A stretch of DNA of 64,000 bases from Myxococcaceae bacterium (GTDB taxonomy: Bacteria > Myxococcota > Myxococcia > Myxococcales > Myxococcaceae): assembly GCA_016793095.1 (NCBI GenBank), contig JAEUJQ010000054.1:1-64000 (forward strand), read 5' to 3'. The notes below the pieces were generated by a model. The model searched no databases, had not been told where the DNA came from, and saw nothing but the letters and a program-made list of their open reading frames with translations. The translations under genes and the position numbers were made by a program. Position 1 is the stretch's first letter; each line of letters begins with the position of its first letter. This document shows, piece after piece, positions 51 through 44,261 of the stretch.

Positions 51-1820
51 TCAAGCCAGGGTCCTCATGCCGCACTCAAGTGATCGATCTTGCTGCGTTC
101 TCGCACGCCATCGCGGTGCCAGATTGGGAACTGCACCCAAGTAGATTGCTTCCGGGGTGGTGACAAGCGCCCGGCCGGGAACCGTCTCGACGCCAGTTCC
201 CGCATCGAACACTGATACTCGGAGGGCCTCGAACTGGCTGTTGAAACTCCAACCATACGTAATCCAGAATTCTCCCGGCGGCGTCGCGACCCACATTTGT
301 GATGTTGGAAAGCGAGGCAGAGTGCCGACCGCCAACATGTCGCCCTGAGTGTTGAGTATTGCGTAGTATTGGTAATCCCAGGTAACGAGAAAGTGGTGCG
401 CATGCGCGAAGATTTCGCCGTGCACGCCCGCCCCAACTGGCCGCGACGGAGAAACGTGAAGCCCTGCGTCGAACTCGGTCAGGACTCGGAGTGCGAGGCC
501 GGTTGGAGTTCGCTCGAGAATGGCTGCACTGTCGGTCTCAGTTCCCACTACGTCGGTGATGGTGATCCCGCTGAGATCGATCCCGGTCGGACTGAACGCC
601 CCACCGTCGAGGTCGACCCTGAAGAGACGCTGGCGGCCTTCATAGCCGTACAGTGGGCCTTCTTCTCGGGCCAGGGTCCAGAAGCGTCGGGCCCAGCCGA
701 AGCCGTGCGGCCAGACGCTTGGTGTTGCTCGCAGCATGCGAACGAAACGAATGCTCGAAGGCACACCCGGCCGAAAGAGAACCGCCGCGGGTGCGTCGAG
801 CATGAGACACTCGCTGAGACCGCAAGCCAGCTCACCGAGGCGCACATTGCCAAGGCTGACATGGGGGCCACCCGGAGAACTCACGAAGGCCGTCGAATTC
901 ATCGTCCACGACATGACCAGTCCTCCGTCAGCGTCATGTGCCCACTGACCCAGATTCACGGCAGTCGCGGCGGGTGAGAACTCAGTCGCGCCAGGCTCGA
1001 TCCAGCTGCCGGTGGCACTCAGCCTGCGCTGAAGAACGGCAGGGGCGCTCAACCAGACGATCCGGAAGGCCCCCGTCTCCGGCACGATTCGGACGTCGCC
1101 CGTGCTGGTCCCGAGGGAGACTGCTGTCTGCGACGACGTCATGAGGTTGTAGAGGAGTACCTGCCGAGGGACTCCGAAGCTCCCACGGACAGCAATCGCA
1201 AGCACGTCGCCAGAGGTTGCGAAGTCCCCGGGGCCTCCTCCGCCGGGAAGGCTCAGGTACCGTGCAGCCCCAGTGGTGAGCCCCGCGTCTCCGACAGCGA
1301 TGCTCGTCACCGACGCAAAGCCTGCATCGTTGGCCACCGACGACGCGAGAAGCCAGGCTCCTCTATGCGAGACGACCTTGTTGAGTTCGCCCACTCCGAG
1401 GACCGAGGGGGACCCGATGAGCCCCTGACCGTCGACCAGCGCCAAGGTGACCTCGGCTCCGGAGTGGCCCAACAGGATGGTTCGTGTCCCGTCGATGGGC
1501 ACGGCCGTGAGTCTGTCAACAGAGGCGAAGTCGCTCGAGGTGGCGAATCCAACCGGCGCCAGACCGCCATCGTCCCAGAGCGTCGTGAAGTAGAAGCCCG
1601 AGCGAGGTCGGGCGGGCCAGAAAGCACAAAAGCTGTTCGCCCTGCCCACCACCGCTCCGCCAGCCTTCGTGAACGGAATGTCCTGCTCGGGAAACCACGC
1701 TTGCTGCGGTTGCGAGGCTTCGATCCCGAGTTCAGCGCGGTTGGCCGCGACCTGGTAGGCGGGCTCTGGGCTGCGTGTGCAGCCCGAGACGCCGAGGAAG
1801 AGGACCAGTACTCGCCTCAC
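51..1820 (-). CDS. Hypothetical secreted lipoprotein
   Basis: A 589-residue protein of unknown function. It begins with a short positively charged hydrophobic leader ending in a lipobox (LGVSGC, cysteine 14), so it is probably lipid-anchored. The body is rich in Gly, Ala, Val, Asp and aromatic residues and has repeated short beta-like blocks, which suggests a beta-propeller-like fold, but no family was recognised. The start is a GTG at 1820; no good ribosome-binding site precedes it, but the lipobox position supports it. The gene is complete, with its stop at 51, and is divergent from the kinase gene to the right. Asp-Ala-Gly-rich lipoproteins of this style are common in myxobacteria. Confidence 0.7.
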   Translation of the reverse strand: MRRVLVLFLGVSGCTRSPEPAYQVAANRAELGIEASQPQQAWFPEQDIPFTKAGGAVVGRANSFCAFWPARPRSGFYFTTLWDDGGLAPVGFATSSDFASVDRLTAVPIDGTRTILLGHSGAEVTLALVDGQGLIGSPSVLGVGELNKVVSHRGAWLLASSVANDAGFASVTSIAVGDAGLTTGAARYLSLPGGGGPGDFATSGDVLAIAVRGSFGVPRQVLLYNLMTSSQTAVSLGTSTGDVRIVPETGAFRIVWLSAPAVLQRRLSATGSWIEPGATEFSPAATAVNLGQWAHDADGGLVMSWTMNSTAFVSSPGGPHVSLGNVRLGELACGLSECLMLDAPAAVLFRPGVPSSIRFVRMLRATPSVWPHGFGWARRFWTLAREEGPLYGYEGRQRLFRVDLDGGAFSPTGIDLSGITITDVVGTETDSAAILERTPTGLALRVLTEFDAGLHVSPSRPVGAGVHGEIFAHAHHFLVTWDYQYYAILNTQGDMLAVGTLPRFPTSQMWVATPPGEFWITYGWSFNSQFEALRVSVFDAGTGVETVPGRALVTTPEAIYLGAVPNLAPRWRARTQQDRSLECGMRTLA

Positions 1821-1925
1821 CTGTTTGAGCGAAGCACAGCAGCCGCATCGTCGGCCACCCCAACCAGCAGCCGCCCGGACCCAAGCGAAAACTCGTCACC
1901 CGCCCCATCCCGGAGGAAAACCCCA

Positions 1926-3005
1926 GTGGTGGATCGCACGCTCTCGGCCCCCGGGAAGCTCTTCCTCGCCGGCGAGTACGCCGTGCTCTGGGGCGGAGTC
2001 GCGCGCGTCGCCGCCGTCGGCCCCCGCGTTCGCGCGTACGTGCGTCGCCGCGCCGATCGCCGCGTCGAGTTGCTCCTCGCCGAGGGCCGCCTCTCAGGTG
2101 ACACCACCCCGCTCGGCGCCCGGTGGCAGGCCACGCCGTCGCCCGCGTTCCACTTCGTCGCCCGCACCGTCGATCTCGCCCTGCGCGCCGTCGCCCAGGA
2201 CAGCCCCGGCTTCTCCATCGCCTTCGAGCCGTCGCCCACCGCCGCTGGCCAGAAGCTCGGCTTCGGCTCCTCCGCGCGCGCCTGCGTGCTCGCCGCCGAG
2301 GCCTGCCGCACCGCCATGGGCGCTACCTTCGACGCCCTCAAGCTCGCGCTCGTCGCCCACGCCTCGGCCCAGCAGGGCAAGGGCAGCGGCGCCGACGTCG
2401 CGGCCTGCTTCGCCGGAGACGTCGTTCGCTACCGCCGCGCCGACGTCACCGCCCTCATCGACGCCGGGAACAAGGGCGGCTTCAGCGGCGCCCTCACCAG
2501 CTCGCCGCCCATCGACGTCTGGCGCGTCAACCCGCCACGCCTGCCCATGCTGTACGTCTTCTCCGGCGCCAGCGCCTCCACGCCCGGCCTCATCGCGGAG
2601 GTCGAGCGCGCGCTCGCCCCGAAGGACCGCGAGCGCTTCGTCCTCCAGAGCGACGCGCTCGGCCTGCAGCTCGAAGAGGCCCTCGCCCGCGGCGACTTCG
2701 CTGGCGCCCGCGCCGCCACCGAGGCCCTTCAGGCGCTCCTCTTCTCCCTCGGCCCCACGCGCACGCCAGGTCTCGAGCGCATCCTCCAGCTCGCCAGCGC
2801 CGCAGGGTGTGTCGCCAAGCAGTCCGGCGCCGGCGGGGGAGACGGCTGCCTCGTCTTCGCGCCCGACACCGCCGCCCGCGACGCGGCCCGCGAGTCCTTC
2901 ACGGCGCGCGGCCTCTTCGCCTTTCCCGTCAGCACCGAGCCCGGCCTGCGCGGCGAGGTGCAGCCCGCGCTCGAGCTCGTCCGCTGGACCGACGCCGCCG
3001 CGTAG
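1926..3005 (+). CDS. GHMP kinase, probable phosphomevalonate kinase
   Basis: A 359-residue GHMP-superfamily kinase, most like phosphomevalonate kinase, which converts mevalonate 5-phosphate to the diphosphate in the mevalonate route to isoprenoids. Three GHMP motifs are visible: SAPGKLFLAGEYAVL at residues 7-21, the ATP loop GFGSSA near 112-117, and SGAGGGD near the C terminus. The GEYAVL form of motif 1 and the segment GKGSGADVAA favour phosphomevalonate kinase over mevalonate kinase. An open frame extends far upstream, but a GGAGG at 1912-1916 nine bases before the GTG at 1926, together with the kinase N terminus, fixes the start. No other mevalonate-pathway gene is in the window. It converges with the acyltransferase gene, with a 3-bp gap. 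Confidence 0.75.
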   Translation: MVDRTLSAPGKLFLAGEYAVLWGGVARVAAVGPRVRAYVRRRADRRVELLLAEGRLSGDTTPLGARWQATPSPAFHFVARTVDLALRAVAQDSPGFSIAFEPSPTAAGQKLGFGSSARACVLAAEACRTAMGATFDALKLALVAHASAQQGKGSGADVAACFAGDVVRYRRADVTALIDAGNKGGFSGALTSSPPIDVWRVNPPRLPMLYVFSGASASTPGLIAEVERALAPKDRERFVLQSDALGLQLEEALARGDFAGARAATEALQALLFSLGPTRTPGLERILQLASAAGCVAKQSGAGGGDGCLVFAPDTAARDAARESFTARGLFAFPVSTEPGLRGEVQPALELVRWTDAAA

Positions 3006-3008
3006 CCG

Positions 3009-4571
3009 TCAGAAGACGCCCGAGCGCTCCGCCAGCATCGCCTTCAGCAGCCCGTCGATGGTGTCGCGCACCTGATCGTTCAGCCGCTGCACGAGGGCCA
3101 GATCGCCCGCCGCCTCCGCCCCGCCTTCGACCTCCACCGGCGCCCCGAAGCGGATGAACCAGCGGGCGGGCAGGGGAGGCAGCGTCACCGGCAGGAACTC
3201 CACGCCGAACAGCCCGCCTGGCAGCTTGCCCAGCAGCGGCACCGACTCCTCCGCGCCCACAATCGCGACCGGCACGATCGGCACCCCCGCGCGCGCCGCG
3301 ATCTTCACGTAGCCGCCACGCCCGAACCGCTGCAGGTGGTAGCGCTGGCCGAACGGCTTCGCGAGCCCCTGCAGCCCCTCGGGGAAGACGATGATCGGCG
3401 TGTCGTCGGCGAGCAACTGCAGCGCGTTCTCGGGGCTCGCCCGCACCGCGCCCAGGCGGTTCCACAGCACACCCACGCCCGGCGCGTAGAACACCTGATC
3501 CTCGAGCAGCCAGCGCGCGGGCTTCAGATCGGCCCGCTCCCGCTTGAGCGCGTGGTGCAGCAGCGGCCCGTCGATCGGCAGCGCGCCGGCGTGGTTCGCC
3601 ACCAGCACGCACGCGCCGGGCGGCAACCGCTCGGCGCCCTCCACCCGCACCCGCCAGTACCGCTGGTACAACGCGTCGGCGAGCGGCTGCAGGCGCTCCA
3701 CCAGGCCCTCATCACGGCCGTACGCATCGACCCGCGCGTCCTTCCCCGCGCGCCCCAGGAACGTGCGCAGCGCCGACGCCACGCCCTTCACCGAGGCGAC
3801 CACCCCGTCACCCGAGAAGAGGCTCGGGCGCAGCTCCACGCGCCTCGCCCGTTCGCTCAGAGAACCCGCCGCGGGCGGGCTCGGCTCCGGCTCCACCGAC
3901 TCGGGCGCCGCCGCGTGCGGCACGGGATCCGCCTGCACGCCGGGAGAGTGGGGGTGAGCGACCGCGACCGCGTCGAGCTCGGACGCGACCGGCGCTCCAG
4001 CGTGCGGCACGGGATCGACCACCACCGCCGGCGAGCCCGCGTGCGGCGTCACCGCTTGGATCGTCGTCGCCTGCGGCGCGGCCGCATGGGCGACGGGGTC
4101 GGCCACCACGAAGGGCGAGTGCGAGTGCCGCGCGGGCGCCCGGCCGAGGGTGAAGGCCTCAGGCGTGGCGTCGTGCGCGACCGGGTCGGCGCTGAGCCTC
4201 GGCGACCCGGCGTGCGGCGCAGGCTGCCTGCCGAGCTCCGTGCCCGTGGGCACCGCGGCGTGCGGCACCGGGTCGGCGACGACCGTCGGCGTGTTCGCGT
4301 GCGCCGCCGGCATCGGGCCGAGCGGCGTCGCCCGCGGGGTCTGCTCGTGGCGGATCGGCTCGGCCCCCCTGGGCTTCCCGCCGACGCGCTTCGTCGGGCG
4401 CACCGGCGGCGGCGGCGGCAGGGGCTTCGTCGGTGGCGTCACCACCTCGGGCGTCACCGGCCGACGGGCGGTCGCGTCCATCGGCGTGAGCACCGGCTTC
4501 GTCGCCGCCGGCACCCGCGGCGCAGCCCCTCGCTTGAACGGATCGTTCCCGAGCACTCGTTTCGCAGCCAT
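3009..4571 (-). CDS. PlsC-type acyltransferase with N-terminal HxxxP repeat array
   Basis: A 520-residue two-part protein. Residues 1-70 are basic and proline-rich. Residues 71-223 are about five copies of a 29-residue repeat built on DPVxHxxxP followed by PAxHxxSP. From about residue 250 there is a lysophospholipid acyltransferase (PlsC/LPLAT) domain with the acceptor-site motif NHAGALPID at 326-334, a variant of the H(X)4D box, and FPEGLQGL further on. The domain family transfers acyl chains to lysophosphatidate or related lipids at the inner membrane. No signal peptide is seen. The start lies 2 bases after the stop of the upstream reductase gene, so the two are co-transcribed and probably translationally coupled. 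The repeats are the unusual part and their role is unknown. Confidence 0.8.
   Translation of the reverse strand: MAAKRVLGNDPFKRGAAPRVPAATKPVLTPMDATARRPVTPEVVTPPTKPLPPPPPVRPTKRVGGKPRGAEPIRHEQTPRATPLGPMPAAHANTPTVVADPVPHAAVPTGTELGRQPAPHAGSPRLSADPVAHDATPEAFTLGRAPARHSHSPFVVADPVAHAAAPQATTIQAVTPHAGSPAVVVDPVPHAGAPVASELDAVAVAHPHSPGVQADPVPHAAAPESVEPEPSPPAAGSLSERARRVELRPSLFSGDGVVASVKGVASALRTFLGRAGKDARVDAYGRDEGLVERLQPLADALYQRYWRVRVEGAERLPPGACVLVANHAGALPIDGPLLHHALKRERADLKPARWLLEDQVFYAPGVGVLWNRLGAVRASPENALQLLADDTPIIVFPEGLQGLAKPFGQRYHLQRFGRGGYVKIAARAGVPIVPVAIVGAEESVPLLGKLPGGLFGVEFLPVTLPPLPARWFIRFGAPVEVEGGAEAAGDLALVQRLNDQVRDTIDGLLKAMLAERSGVF
3903..4361 (-). repeat. In-frame 87-bp repeats encoding the HxxxP array
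   Basis: This part of the acyltransferase gene encodes about five tandem 29-residue units of the form xDPVxHxxxPxxxxLGxxPAxHxxSPxxx, with the last units degenerate. Each unit has two His-x-x-x-Pro elements spaced 13-16 residues apart, giving about ten to eleven in a row. DNA copies are diverged, so the pattern is conserved at protein level and is not a recent slippage product. Confidence 0.75.
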
Positions 4572-4572
4572 G

Positions 4573-5526
4573 TCATCTCCGCATCGTCGCCATCGCCTCG
4601 TGTACAGGCAGGTGAGGCAAGAAGTGAAGCTCCCGCGCCGCCCGCGTCCCGTCCGCGAGCCAGGCGTAGCGGAAGAAGTCCATCAGCGCCCAGGGGCTGG
4701 CCGGGAGCCCGGCGGCCTCCATCGCGGCGATCGCCGAGCGGAGCAGCGGCCCCGGCAGTGGCACCGGCGTCGCCCCGGCCTGCTGGAGCAGCGCCGACAC
4801 CGGCGCCACCCCCTCACCGACGATGTTGAAGACGCCCTTCGCGCGCGTGTGCAGCGCCAGGTGCAGCGCGCGGGCCGCGTCGTCCTCATGCACGACCTGC
4901 CACAGCGGATCGAACCCGAGCACCGTCGGCACCACCTTCGTGCGGACCAGCCGCGTGAAGGGGTTGTTCGAGCGCTCGCCGACGATCGGCGCGAAGCGCA
5001 GCGTCAGCACCTCGAGGTCGGAGAAGCGCTCGGCGAACTCGGCGACGGCGCGCTCGACCTCGATGCGATCGTTGACGAACCTGATGCCCGGCACCGGGTG
5101 GAGCGCGGAGGACTCGGGCAGGTACGCCGCCGCCTGGCGCCTTGCGCCGTACAAGGCCGTCAGCGAGGGCACGATCAGCCGGCCCACCCGGGCCTGGCCC
5201 GCCGCCGCCAGCACGTTCAGCGTGCCCAGCACTTCGAGCTCGTGCGCGAACGCCGCCCGGTGCACCCGCGAGTTCACGAACGCCAGGTGGAAGAGGGCGT
5301 CGACGCGCGTCGCGCCGAGGGCCCGCGAGAGCTCGACGTCCACCCCCGGGCGCAGCAGATCGACCCGCTCGAAGTGCACCGGCGCAGGCAGGCCGTCAGG
5401 GCGTGACACGTCGAAGACGACCAGCTCCTCGACGCGCTCGTCGTCGAGCAGCTTCGGCATCAGGAGCCGCCCGAGATCGCTCGACGCGCCAGTCAGCCCG
5501 ACCCGTATGGTTCGCCCCGCCCGCAT
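4573..5526 (-). CDS. NAD(P)-dependent epimerase/reductase (extended SDR)
   Basis: A 317-residue extended short-chain dehydrogenase/reductase. The N terminus has the nucleotide-binding glycine motif in the form TGASSDLG, followed by an acidic end of beta-2 (VVFDVSRPDG) typical of NAD binding. The length and the conserved middle (LFHLAFVN) fit sugar epimerase or sterol dehydrogenase-like members; the substrate cannot be read from sequence. The start at 5526 was chosen because it places the Rossmann motif at the N terminus; an upstream ATG at 5565 would overlap the divergent gene. It is the first gene of a two-gene unit with the PlsC-type acyltransferase. From memory, an SDR next to a PlsC protein also occurs in actinobacteria (Rv0501-Rv0502), which suggests a lipid or glycolipid role. 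Confidence 0.75.
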   Translation of the reverse strand: MRAGRTIRVGLTGASSDLGRLLMPKLLDDERVEELVVFDVSRPDGLPAPVHFERVDLLRPGVDVELSRALGATRVDALFHLAFVNSRVHRAAFAHELEVLGTLNVLAAAGQARVGRLIVPSLTALYGARRQAAAYLPESSALHPVPGIRFVNDRIEVERAVAEFAERFSDLEVLTLRFAPIVGERSNNPFTRLVRTKVVPTVLGFDPLWQVVHEDDAARALHLALHTRAKGVFNIVGEGVAPVSALLQQAGATPVPLPGPLLRSAIAAMEAAGLPASPWALMDFFRYAWLADGTRAARELHFLPHLPVHEAMATMRR

Positions 5527-5563
5527 CGCCGAAGCCTGATACGACACCGCGCCGTCCGATGCC

Positions 5564-6553
5564 ATGCGTCGCCAGAGCCTTCTCCTCGTCGTGCTGCTGA
5601 TCGTCGCCAGGCCGGCGCTCGGCCACGACGCTGACGTCATCTACGCGCGCCTCGAGGACGCGCCGGGAGGCTTCGTGCAGATCGTCACCCTCACGAACGC
5701 GACCCTCTCGCAGCTCGCGCCGGTGGACGGCGACGGCGACGGGCTGCTGACCCAGGGCGATCTCGACGCCCGCGGCGCTGCCCTCGTCGCCGGCGTGTGG
5801 AACGACGTGCCCCTGTCGGCCGGTGGCGTTCCCTGCGCGCGCTCCGACGAGACGGCCCGCCTCGAGGACGGCTACGTGACGCTCACGGCGCGCTTCCGCT
5901 GCGGCGAGGGCGACCTGCGCCAGGACTTCAAGGTGCTGCGCGTGCTGCCCACCAACTACCGGGTGGTGCTGGGCAGCCAGCTCGAGGGTGAGCGCGGGCG
6001 CCGCTTCGCGCAGGGCGTCTTCACCGCGCTCGAGATCCCGAGGCCACGCCCGCCGTCCGTGTTCGATGGTGCGCGGCTGAGGTCGGGGGTGATCCGGGGC
6101 CTGGCCGACACGGGCGTCGCGGAGGGGCTCGCCGCGTTGCTGCTGTCGTTCATCACCGCCGGCGCGTTCCGACGTGGCGCGCTGCGGCTCGGCCTGCTCG
6201 TCGCGGGAGGGCTCGTGGTGCTCGGAGGACGGGGCGCTGAAGCCCTGGTGCCGTGGAGCCTTGGCCTGGGCGCGCTCGTGCTCGGCTTCGTGCGTGATCG
6301 GCCTGGCGTGCGCGCGCGGCTGCTCGACGCGACCTGCCTCGTGCTGGGGGGCGCGCTGGGGCTGCGGGCCACGATCCCCGTCGCCGCCGAGGGGCTGGGC
6401 TGGGTGACCGGCCTCGCGCTCGTCGCGGCGGTGACGTTCGCCGCCGGCGTGCCGCTGGGTCGACTGCTCGCGCGCCGGCCGCCGCTCTTCTTCGGCGCGC
6501 GCCTCGCCCTCGTCGCCCTCGCGCTCTTCTCCGCAGGCCTGCGGCTCACGTAA
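5564..6553 (+). CDS. Secreted-domain membrane protein, HupE/UreJ-like N domain
   Basis: A 329-residue membrane protein. Residues 1-20 are a signal peptide ending at ALG-HD. The next 150 residues form an extracytoplasmic domain with an EF-hand-like acidic loop (DGDGDGLLTQGDL, about residues 58-70) and two cysteines. Residues from about 185 to the end contain six or seven hydrophobic helices separated by short Arg-rich loops. The ectodomain looks like that of HupE/UreJ-type proteins, but the GxxHxxxGxDH helix typical of that family is absent, so the assignment is tentative. It starts 38 bp from the divergent reductase gene and is followed 40 bp later by a coiled-coil protein gene. Confidence 0.6.
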   Translation: MRRQSLLLVVLLIVARPALGHDADVIYARLEDAPGGFVQIVTLTNATLSQLAPVDGDGDGLLTQGDLDARGAALVAGVWNDVPLSAGGVPCARSDETARLEDGYVTLTARFRCGEGDLRQDFKVLRVLPTNYRVVLGSQLEGERGRRFAQGVFTALEIPRPRPPSVFDGARLRSGVIRGLADTGVAEGLAALLLSFITAGAFRRGALRLGLLVAGGLVVLGGRGAEALVPWSLGLGALVLGFVRDRPGVRARLLDATCLVLGGALGLRATIPVAAEGLGWVTGLALVAAVTFAAGVPLGRLLARRPPLFFGARLALVALALFSAGLRLT

Positions 6554-6593: not shown

Positions 6594-7367
6594 ATGGCGA
6601 AGGAGTCCTACAACGATCTGATCTTCCAGCTCGGCGATCTCGCGCGCGAGCACCTGGCCGAGAAGCAGCCGCTGCCCAGGACGATGGCGGCGGTCTTCGA
6701 AGCCGAGGAGGTCCTCCTGGGGATTCGCGACGAGATCGCCGCGCTGGAAGGCGAGATGAACGAGGAAGACGGCGCGTACCAGGACTTCCTCGATCAGCAG
6801 GCGGCCGAGAAGGAAGAGCAGGACGCGATCACCAAGAAGTGGCGCCACGCGGTCGCCGGCGTCGAGAGCCGCAGCCGCGAGCTGCGCAAGTCGCTCTCGT
6901 CTCAGAAGGCCGCCTACCGCTACCAGAAGAACTCGCTCGCCCTCGCCGATCAGAAGCACAAGGAGCTCGAGCAGCGCGAAGGCCACGACATCCGCAAGAT
7001 CGACACCAGCAAGGCCAACCTGAAGACCTTCCGCCTCAAGATGATGCGCTTTGGCCGCATGCTCGAGGACATGGAGATGGAGCTCAACCAGGTGCTCACG
7101 CCCCGGCCGGGGCAGGTCGGCGCCCAGGGCATCCTCGCGCACAAGCGCATCCTCGAGATGGAAGACGAGGCCGAGGAGCGCAAGGCCCAGCACGAGGACC
7201 GCATGAAGGAGCTCGACGAGGCGCTCGCCGGCAAAGAGGCCGAGGCCCAGGCCGCGGAGGAAGAGCTCGACGCCTGCCTCTTCGATCTCGGTGAAGAGGT
7301 GTACGGCGATCGCGTCGCGCACCCCGCGCTGAACCCGCTCTACCCCCGGCTCGACAAGGCCGGGTAG
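6594..7367 (+). CDS. Hypothetical coiled-coil protein
   Basis: A 257-residue soluble protein with no signal peptide or membrane segment. Most of residues 40-245 is strongly charged with heptad-like Leu/Ala spacing and Glu/Lys/Arg runs (for example EMEDEAEERKAQHEDRMKEL), predicting a long coiled coil broken by one Pro-Gly stretch (TPRPGQVGAQG, about residues 168-178). The C terminus ends in a short non-coiled tail (NPLYPRLDKAG). A GAGG precedes the ATG. No family was recognised. The position just before rpsA, with its own separate promoter downstream, says little about function; a structural or scaffolding role is only inference. Confidence 0.65.
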   Translation: MAKESYNDLIFQLGDLAREHLAEKQPLPRTMAAVFEAEEVLLGIRDEIAALEGEMNEEDGAYQDFLDQQAAEKEEQDAITKKWRHAVAGVESRSRELRKSLSSQKAAYRYQKNSLALADQKHKELEQREGHDIRKIDTSKANLKTFRLKMMRFGRMLEDMEMELNQVLTPRPGQVGAQGILAHKRILEMEDEAEERKAQHEDRMKELDEALAGKEAEAQAAEEELDACLFDLGEEVYGDRVAHPALNPLYPRLDKAG

Positions 7368-18852: not shown

Positions 18853-18855
18853 TTC

Positions 18856-19120
18856 TCTCAGCTCGACTCCGCCTGCGTCCGGCCTGCGCTCCTCGGCGGG
18901 CAGGTGGACGCAGGTGACGTTCGCCTCGTCGACTCCGCCCGAACTCCGGCTTCGTCTCGCGGTTTCTCAGCTCGACTCCGCCTGCGTCCGGCCTGCGCTC
19001 CTCGGCGGGCAGGTGGACGCAGGTGACGTTCGCCTCGTCGACTCCGCCCGGCCTCCGGCTGCGTCTCGCGGTCTCCCTGCTCGACTCCGCCTGCGCCCGG
19101 CCTGCGCTCCTCGCAGGTCG
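18856..19120. repeat. Non-coding 109-bp tandem repeat, about 2.4 copies
   Basis: Two nearly identical 109-bp copies (18856-18964 and 18965-19073) are followed by a partial third copy ending about 19120. Each full copy contains a hairpin: CCTGCGTCC pairs with GGACGCAGG (18872-18880 with 18906-18914, and again 109 bp later), with an inner CCTGC/GCAGG stem. It fills the gap between the thiolase stop and a small gene on the other strand, and could act as a terminator. Confidence 0.85.
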
Positions 19121-41949: not shown

Positions 41950-43503
41950 ATGGGACGACTTCAGGTTCTTGGCATCGCGGTGTTGGCGGCGGTCGGCCTG
42001 GCGGTCGTGCCCGAGCTCTTGCCGACCGGACCCTCGAACACCCTCGATCCGACGAAGCTGCTCGAGTCTGGCCAGTGGATGATCGCCGCCGGGCTCGTCT
42101 TCGCCGGCGGCCTGCTGACGTCGCTGACGCCGTGTGTCTACCCGCTGATCCCGATCACCGTCGGAGTCTTCGGGGCCCGGCAGGCCTCGAGCCGCGGGCG
42201 CGCCTTCGTCCTCACCAGTGCGTACGTGAACGGCATGGGCCTCGTCTTCGCCATCCTCGGCGTGGTGGCGGGCATGACGGGCAAGGCCTTCGGCTCGGCC
42301 CTCGGTAACCCGTGGGTCGTCACCGGCCTCGCGCTCTTCATGCTGGTGCTCGCGTCGTCGATGTTCGGCGCCTTCGAGCTCGCCCTGCCGTCGGGGCTGG
42401 CGCTCAAGTTGAACAACGTGGGCGGCGGAGGCCTCCTCGGCGCGCTGCTCATGGGCTCGGTGGCGGGGTTCCTCGCGGCGCCCTGCACCGGCCCGACGCT
42501 CGCGGGACTCCTGGCGTGGATCTCGAAGACGCAGGATCCGACGCTCGGTGGGCTGCTGCTCTACGTCTACGCCCTCGGCATCGGCGTGCCCTTCTTCATC
42601 ATCGGCGTCTTCACGGTGCGGCTGCCCAAGGGCGGCGTGTGGATGGAGTGGGTGAAGAGCATCTTCGGCGTCGCGCTGCTGGCCCTCGCCGCCTCCTACC
42701 TGCGCGACGCGTTCCCCTCGATCCGGACGGCGCTCGAAGGCCTCGGCATCGCGACGGGCAAGGCCTTCGGCATCGGGATCGCCTCGGTGCTCGCCTTCGT
42801 CGGCGTGCTGCTGGGCGCGATCCACCTGTCCTTCAAGGAGAAGGGCGAGTGGCCGCTCAAGGCCGTCGGCGTCACCGCCGTGGTGATGGCGTTCCTGCTG
42901 CGCATGTCGGCCGGCGCCGCGCCCGAGCCGGTGAAGGTCGATCCCCAGCTCGCCGACCAGCGCGCCCTGATCGAGCGGGAGATCGCCGAGCTCGATCGGC
43001 AGCTCGGCCTCGAGACTGACCAGGAGAAGAAGAACGTGCTCGCCGCCCGGCTGGCCAGCGCGCGCGACGGCCTCGCGAAGCTCAGCGGCGATCAGGTCGA
43101 GTTCGAGTGGGGGCTGGTCTTCAAAGCCGAAGAGTCGAAGTCGGCGGACCCGTTCGACGCCGCGCTCGCGAAGGCCAGGGCGGACTGCAAGCCGGTGATG
43201 ATCGACTTCTTCGCTGACTGGTGCGCCGCCTGTAAGGAGCTCGACCAGCACACCTACGTCGCGAAGGAGGTCGCGCACGAGGCCCACCGCTTCGTCACCA
43301 TCAAGGTCGACGCGACCAACGATCACGAGGTGACGGACAAGCTGTACGAGAAGTTCGGCGTGCGCGGCCTGCCGACGGTCGCCTTCGTCAGCCCCACCGG
43401 CGAGGTGCTCGACAAGCCCCGCGTCACCGGGTTCATGAAGCCGAAGGAGTTCCTCTCCGAGATGCAGAAGGTCGCGGTCGCGACATGCACGGCCTCGCCC
43501 TGA
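41950..43503 (+). CDS. Short DsbD-type thiol:disulfide interchange protein
   Basis: A 517-residue DsbD-like protein. A beta domain of about eight membrane helices carries the redox cysteines TPCVYPLIP and APCTGPTL, and the C-terminal thioredoxin domain has WCAAC at 424-428 and a GLPTVAF block. The N-terminal alpha domain of E. coli DsbD is absent. It passes electrons from cytoplasmic thioredoxin to the periplasm, for example for c-type cytochrome maturation, which fits the pentaheme cytochrome elsewhere in this window. Between the two parts is a Gln/Glu-rich linker. The stop overlaps the next gene by 19 bp. Confidence 0.88.
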   Translation: MGRLQVLGIAVLAAVGLAVVPELLPTGPSNTLDPTKLLESGQWMIAAGLVFAGGLLTSLTPCVYPLIPITVGVFGARQASSRGRAFVLTSAYVNGMGLVFAILGVVAGMTGKAFGSALGNPWVVTGLALFMLVLASSMFGAFELALPSGLALKLNNVGGGGLLGALLMGSVAGFLAAPCTGPTLAGLLAWISKTQDPTLGGLLLYVYALGIGVPFFIIGVFTVRLPKGGVWMEWVKSIFGVALLALAASYLRDAFPSIRTALEGLGIATGKAFGIGIASVLAFVGVLLGAIHLSFKEKGEWPLKAVGVTAVVMAFLLRMSAGAAPEPVKVDPQLADQRALIEREIAELDRQLGLETDQEKKNVLAARLASARDGLAKLSGDQVEFEWGLVFKAEESKSADPFDAALAKARADCKPVMIDFFADWCAACKELDQHTYVAKEVAHEAHRFVTIKVDATNDHEVTDKLYEKFGVRGLPTVAFVSPTGEVLDKPRVTGFMKPKEFLSEMQKVAVATCTASP

Positions 43504-43928
43504 TCCTGGCGCTCGCCGCCGACGCCGGGGTGGCGCCGCGCGACGAGGTCCTCACGCTCGTGCAGAAGCAGGTGGCGGCGTGGAACCGGGGCGATCTCGA
43601 CGGCTTCTGCGCGGTGTACGCCGATGACGCCGTCTTCGTGACGCCTCCACGCGCCGCGCAGGCCGACGCGGGCGTGAGCGCCTCTGACGGGGTGACGCGC
43701 GGCCGCGCCGAGGTGCTCGCCCGCTACAAGAAGCGGTACCCGGACGGGAAGGCGATGGGCCAGCTCGCGATCGAGCCGTGGGACGTGCGCGAGACGAGGG
43801 ACACGGTGTCGATCTCGGCGAAGTGGACGCTGCGGTACCCGGACAAGCCGGCGCTCAGCGGCAACACGGTGATCGTCCTCCTGCGCGGCGCCGGCGGCTG
43901 GCGCATCGTGCACGACGCGTCGATGTGA
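43485..43928 (+). CDS. SnoaL/DUF4440-like protein
   Basis: A 147-residue protein with a short hydrophobic N terminus (probable signal peptide, MHGLALILALAADAG) and a SnoaL/NTF2-like alpha+beta domain: VQKQVAAWNRGDLDGFCAVYADDAVFV, RGRAEVLARYKKRYPDG and WRIVHDASM. Members of this superfamily have varied ligands; no catalytic residues identify a reaction. It overlaps the end of the DsbD gene by 19 bp, so it is co-transcribed. It is followed by a non-coding minisatellite. Confidence 0.75.
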   Translation: MHGLALILALAADAGVAPRDEVLTLVQKQVAAWNRGDLDGFCAVYADDAVFVTPPRAAQADAGVSASDGVTRGRAEVLARYKKRYPDGKAMGQLAIEPWDVRETRDTVSISAKWTLRYPDKPALSGNTVIVLLRGAGGWRIVHDASM

Positions 43929-43950
43929 GCCGCAGGACGTGTCGAGCTGC

Positions 43951-44070
43951 GCCCCACGAGCGTCGAGGGAGCCCCACGAGCGTCGAGGGAGCCCCACGAG
44001 CGTCGAGGGAGCCGCACGAGCGTCGAGGGACCCTCACGAGCGTCGAGGGACCCCACGAGCGTCGAGGGGA
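43951..44070. repeat. 20-bp minisatellite, six copies plus degenerate flanks
   Basis: Six consecutive 20-bp units of GCCCCACGAGCGTCGAGGGA, the first three identical and the others with one to three changes, run from 43951 to 44070. Degenerate copies extend to about 44140, and a partial copy of GCCGCAGGACGTGTCGAG lies at 43930 and again near 44112, bracketing the array. It fills the 333-bp gap between the SnoaL-like gene and the next lipoprotein gene; nothing else was seen in that gap. Confidence 0.9.
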
Positions 44071-44261
44071 GCCCACGATGCGCCGAGGTGAGCCGCACGA
44101 CGCGCCGATGCGAGGCCGCAGGACGTGTCGAGGTGAGCCGCACGACGGCGCCCCCTGGCCGCGCGAGCCGGCGAGGGCGGAGGACCGCGCCACCGTGCCT
44201 CAACCCTCGAGCAGCGCGCCGAGGGTCGCGCCGCGACCGCAGGTGGAATACGACGCAGCGG

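Follow-up and report, generated by a model that had tools for sequence, protein, structure and literature searches.

Bacterial lipid acyltransferases are usually viewed as compact membrane enzymes. The PlsC protein of Thermotoga maritima (PDB 5kym) is the best structural match of the myxobacterial enzyme described here: both have the same fold and belong to the same superfamily (Foldseek E 2.6e-06 for 5kym_A, phmmer 1.8e-4), and the FPEG motif is present in 5kym as well. However, the 5kym chain counts 247 residues and has no tail of the kind discussed below, and its catalytic motif has the spacing H-x4-D (NHQSLMD), whereas that of our protein is H-x6-D. With respect to gene organization, the mycobacterial Rv0501-Rv0502 pair, in which an SDR adjoins a PlsC homologue, is reminiscent of the SDR and PlsC-type neighbours in our window, the likeness being one of description and not of sequence. 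PMC10593935 refers to Rv0502 as a homologue of PlsC. In Myxococcus xanthus, ElbD and the MXAN_1674-1676 ether-lipid genes are described as having acyltransferase-like domains near genes of the NAD-dependent epimerase family (PMC9131029). These are multidomain proteins encoded in other operons, and again they are likened to our locus by description, not by sequence.

The window, that is, the whole stretch of 64,000 nucleotides that was analysed, stems from a contig of a Myxococcaceae bacterium. On its reverse strand, at 3009..4571, lies a gene for a PlsC-superfamily acyltransferase of 520 amino acids with a long N-terminal tail, as judged from the open reading frame and Pfam. The order of its parts is an N-terminal signature, VLGNDPFKRGAA (aa 6-17, 4521..4556), recognized by its order-wide conservation; a Pro/Lys-rich linker with a weaker RPxTPE[LV] element (aa 18-70, 4362..4520); an array of 11 HxxxP motifs (aa 71-223, 3903..4361); two helices predicted with low confidence in an AlphaFold model (aa 238-246 and 256-273, 3753..3860); and the catalytic domain (aa 307-437, 3261..3653), all on the reverse strand. 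An SDR gene of the epimerase family (4573..5640, reverse strand; PF01370, E 8e-14) is situated directly upstream on the same strand with a gap of a single base, as the first-pass annotation had proposed in placing both in one unit, and the two genes are probably co-translated. The true start of the SDR is likely near 5526, judging by eye from the nucleotide-binding motif. The SDR was found at 14 of 16 loci tested.

A GHMP-kinase gene (1365-3005), which resembles mevalonate/phosphomevalonate kinases with scores under the curated cut-offs, runs convergently towards the acyltransferase gene. On the other side of the operon, a divergent gene (5564-6553) has no Pfam match, and next to it lies a coiled-coil-like gene (6594-7367). 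Both of these accompany the operon in L031-L035, L041 and L045, and the first of them alone does so in L042 and L044, both of which are on short contigs; neither is beside the operon in L036-L040, L043 and L046.

The membership of the protein in the PlsC acyltransferase superfamily is borne out by the match to PF01553 (E 7.5e-17; 61.8 bits against a gathering cut-off of 23) and by the Foldseek result. The FPEG block, at residues 396-399, is invariant in a five-row alignment. The usual H-x4-D catalytic motif is not found; in its place the protein has NHAGALPID, an H-x6-D spacing, within the motif region NHAGALPIDG (aa 326-335, 3567..3596). This spacing recurs in 56 of 59 rows from the family, a few of which are repeat reads of one genome; two of the remaining rows have NR and one lacks the D. 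The spacing, in the form NH[AS]GALPxDG, is a trait of the subfamily, and by profile and fold the domain is still a member of the superfamily. The score for the 1-acylglycerol-3-phosphate acyltransferase model TIGR00530 stays below the cut-off (25.1 bits vs 102.95). A short paralogue of 284 aa in the same genome (L153) belongs to the same subfamily: it has H-x6-D (NHGGQLPFDG) and a domain that is 40-41% identical, but it is without N-terminal tail, array or GNDPF signature. Apart from the unusual spacing of its catalytic motif, we consider the enzyme an ordinary member of the superfamily.

What sets the protein apart is the array. About ten HxxxP elements had been reported ahead of the PlsC domain; 11 were found, spanning residues 75-223, with the motif His at positions 75, 91, 104, 120, 133, 149, 162, 177, 190, 206 and 219. 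The intervals between them (16, 13, 16, 13, 16, 13, 15, 13, 16 and 13 residues) reflect a 29-residue double unit, DPVxHxx[AT]P...PAxHxxSPxVxA, and the self-identity of the array is indeed highest at lag 29 (39%, compared with 6-17% at the remaining lags tested), which confirms the unit length given earlier. In 20,000 shuffles of residues 71-232, the mean number of HxxxP motifs was 2.44 and the maximum 8, so that 11 was never reached. Within the 11 motifs, His and the Pro at +4 are invariant because the motif is defined by them. Among the remaining columns, all of which vary, the steadiest is Pro at -3 (9 of 11), and the +3 position is occupied by S in four motifs, T in three, A in three and V in one. 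Since Tandem Repeats Finder detected no DNA array at 3903-4361, the copies are old, diverged in DNA and alike mainly as protein.

Other repeats are present in the window. A 20-base tandem repeat of about 11 copies (CACGAGCGTCGAGGGAGCCC) occupies 43911-44145; it starts at the 3' end of the reading frame 43485-43928 and continues past the stop, and its unit of 20 is not a multiple of three. A direct repeat of 109 bases, with 2.4 copies that are 94% alike, is found at 18854-19113.

Matches to the protein occur in 37 of 40 related genomes, and the acyltransferase domain is found at E 1e-40 in 90 of 96 genomes of the family. The part that is conserved throughout the order is the N-terminal signature VLGNDPFxRGAA at the start of the orthologues, which is separate from the HxxxP array and may itself serve as a docking peptide. 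At the DNA level, the GNDPFxRG pattern is present exactly once per genome in 28 of 40 genomes, while the reversed control gave none. The orthologues without the array in other Myxococcaceae genera, among them L012, L014, L016, L037 and L122, share the GNDPF signature, a long low-complexity tail and the PlsC domain, with an SDR upstream where this was tested. Their tails, which are Lys/Ala, Ala/Glu or otherwise low in complexity and of very different lengths, are situated at the same place and contain no HxxxP array.

The array itself has a much narrower distribution. A search with two repeat profiles, by which the proposed search for the unit in other genomes was carried out, gave arrays in 16 of the 96 family genomes for profile A1 (E 0.001) and in 17 for profile A2 (E 0.01), in combination 20 genomes belonging to nine genera (g1, g3, g5, g9, g10, g13, g16, g18 and g36). 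Extension of A1 to 145 genomes of the order returned the same 16 genomes, and A2 had 17 positives among 195 genomes of the phylum; no array was found beyond the family in these searches, which scored the first-look candidates partly (50 of 177 in genome G000), so that weak arrays elsewhere could be missed. In the genomes searched, the array always sits in the acyltransferase gene: on these contigs it shares its frame with the GNDPF signature at the start or with the PlsC domain at the end. A repeat common to other proteins can be dismissed, as all A1 and A2 matches in the genomes searched are to this gene. One weak A1 match (G006:C188, E 0.0026) proved on reading the sequence to contain no array. 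In the carriers, the array comprises from 3 to 23 motif copies. The tail contains no Pfam domain, even at E 10, the repeat profile has no match among PDB chains, and literature searches for the array or the enzyme returned nothing similar. With respect to these sources, this is a new tail on a known kind of enzyme.

In a 44-row tree built on the catalytic domain, from which G014 and G048 are left out, all 17 rows labelled as array-bearing lie to the same side of a branch whose support is 99/98. That side also holds two members without an array: G079, whose short tail has a single H..[STA]P copy, and G007, the 5' end of which is cut off. G015, labelled array-free in the tree yet having three copies with 17-residue spacing, falls on the other side. 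Therefore, either the motif predates the clade and was lost in places, or it arose more than once.

Comparison among the nine genera reveals which features of the array are kept. A motif of roughly P-x-[PA]-H-x-x-[SAT]-P is shared, at the same place in the protein, while the spacers and the spacing differ. Depending on the genus, 67-100% of the His residues in the tail are followed by Pro at +4, against a Pro background of 13-25%. A density table was made without L023 and L025, which lack an NH[AGS]G match. Counted over motifs that have H plus P at +4 and weighted by genus, the +3 residue is S in 56%, A in 32% and T in 5%, the -1 residue P in 54% and A in 29%, and the -3 residue P in 63% and A in 22%; at +6, L, V or A prevails. 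Profile A1 was built from units chosen by their H..P pattern, so that constant H and P are built into it and carry no meaning. For the most part, the spacing is 16/13 in g1 and g18, 15/13 in g16, 16 (15-17) in g36, 17 in both g3 and g10, and 18 in g9, and it is irregular in g5 and g13. In the sequences compared, the motif is retained while the surrounding frame is not.

These data bear on the suggestion that the regular His spacing serves to bind metal. The tail could be responsive to metal or pH, its His residues binding zinc, copper or nickel or changing charge near pH 6 and in this way switching or clustering the enzyme; the composition is in line with this, as 13 of the first 240 residues are His and the array has no Lys and is otherwise near-neutral (6 R, 7 D and 8 E in 162 residues). 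But the distance between motif His is mostly 13-18 residues, and neither the close HxH or HxxH clustering nor the fixed geometry of His-rich metal-binding repeats is seen in the array, the only HxH pairs in the array of the window protein being 149/151 and 206/208. The spacing is not conserved among genera, which disfavours a fixed metal-binding lattice, and the residues that are conserved, Pro at +4 and S/A/T at +3, play no role in metal binding. As it is these residues that are kept while the spacing shifts by genus, the metal-binding claim is weakened, and we hold a metal- or pH-responsive tail to be quite unlikely.

The +3 residue, in turn, might point to a substrate for modification, with HxxSP/TP recognised by a Ser/Thr kinase of the proline-directed type or by some other modifying enzyme, in the manner of tails phosphorylated at multiple sites. 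S or T precedes the Pro in 7 of the 11 window motifs, and S is also the residue found most often at +3 when the genera are taken together. Nevertheless, A or V takes this position in the other 4 window motifs, and in G014, which has 12 motifs, it is A rather than S in most units. The frequency of A and V implies that a hydroxyl is not needed, and such a role for the tail appears very unlikely.

Whether His and Pro are held by selection can be judged from codon comparisons within the genus. In an ungapped block aligned between the window and L002, amino-acid changes affect 0 of 14 motif codons and 26 of 82 others (p = 0.0099), with silent changes in 3 of the 14. Similar figures were obtained with L003 (0/14 vs 27/82, p 0.009) and, in a shorter ungapped block, with L004 (0/10 vs 22/58, p 0.024), while the nearest pair, L002/L003, is too close to tell (0/14 vs 7/82, p 0.59). 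Over the entire aligned array, the counts are 0/23 vs 60/140 for L002 (p 1.1e-5) and 0/20 vs 71/131 for L005 (p 9e-7), both against the window, and 0/28 vs 15/172 for L002/L003 (not significant, p 0.14), and one or two motif His are changed in pairs involving L004; in these longer alignments the aligner may itself favour pairing His on His and Pro on Pro. All pairs have a common history and do not represent independent tests. As sequence comparisons, they demonstrate that, within the genus, His and Pro of the motif are under purifying selection.

Together with the shuffles, the codon comparison rules out chance or plain low complexity. The array survived the check proposed in the first-pass annotation, which was whether it is ordinary low-complexity sequence with His positions drifting in relatives: the His are kept. 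A neutral repeat, in which expansion and homogenisation keep the copies alike without selection, would fit L007 and L011, whose copies within the genus are nearly identical, as expected from recent expansion. The window copies, on the other hand, are old, yet the motif is still found 11 times in register amid columns that vary, and the Pro codons of the motif change silently within the genus. This explanation is scarcely credible.

The physical state of the tail was predicted. In an AlphaFold model based on a shallow alignment of five sequences, pLDDT is below 50 at residues 1-45 and 61-260, and there is no secondary structure ahead of residue 238; the score for the domain is modest (mean 53.4, pTM 0.47). 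The tail is thus predicted to be disordered, which agrees with the disordered tether suggested beforehand. It may be asked if the tail is an entropic tether only, giving reach between the conserved N-terminal peptide and the membrane-bound catalytic domain, with a composition that hardly matters. The predicted disorder and the low-complexity tails of very different length that take the same place in orthologues of other genera would be in accordance with this. A mere spacer, however, would not need His and Pro and is disfavoured for that reason: these residues are kept as their neighbours change, and nine genera have the motif between spacers that have been rewritten. A tether of this kind is rather unlikely.

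The best explanation seems to be a disordered tail that displays multiple short docking motifs on a PlsC-superfamily enzyme, a peripheral membrane acyltransferase, and we give it slightly less than an even chance. It is favoured because the tail is predicted to be disordered, the motif is selected copy by copy and the spacing is free. As in arrays of short linear motifs, a conserved motif is combined with free spacers and spacing in a context that is, by prediction, disordered. That the orthologues in most genera are without the HxxxP motif counts against a docking function. According to this proposal, the tail would present 3 to 23 copies of a short linear motif of about P-x-[PA]-H-x-x-[SAT]-P-x-[LVA]. 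A partner would read each motif separately, such that copy number and spacing could drift freely while His and Pro are kept. Multivalent docking might then hold the enzyme, and perhaps also the SDR encoded by the adjacent gene, at a partner protein or a membrane site. Both the partner and the docking function are inferred from the pattern of conservation. It is possible to speculate further about an undescribed bacterial docking code, in which PxH-x-x-[SAT]-P is recognised by a reader protein of one myxobacterial clade, and tandem copies numbering up to 20-odd cluster the acyltransferase and the SDR, controlling where or when membrane lipid is made; we regard this as conceivable, but doubtful.

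The tail described here is an instructive example of disordered sequence being rewritten around a motif that is kept. A selected, multivalent tail, with an array found in no other gene of the genomes searched, offers a clean handle for finding the partner. It also offers a way to ask how a bacterium positions its lipid synthesis.
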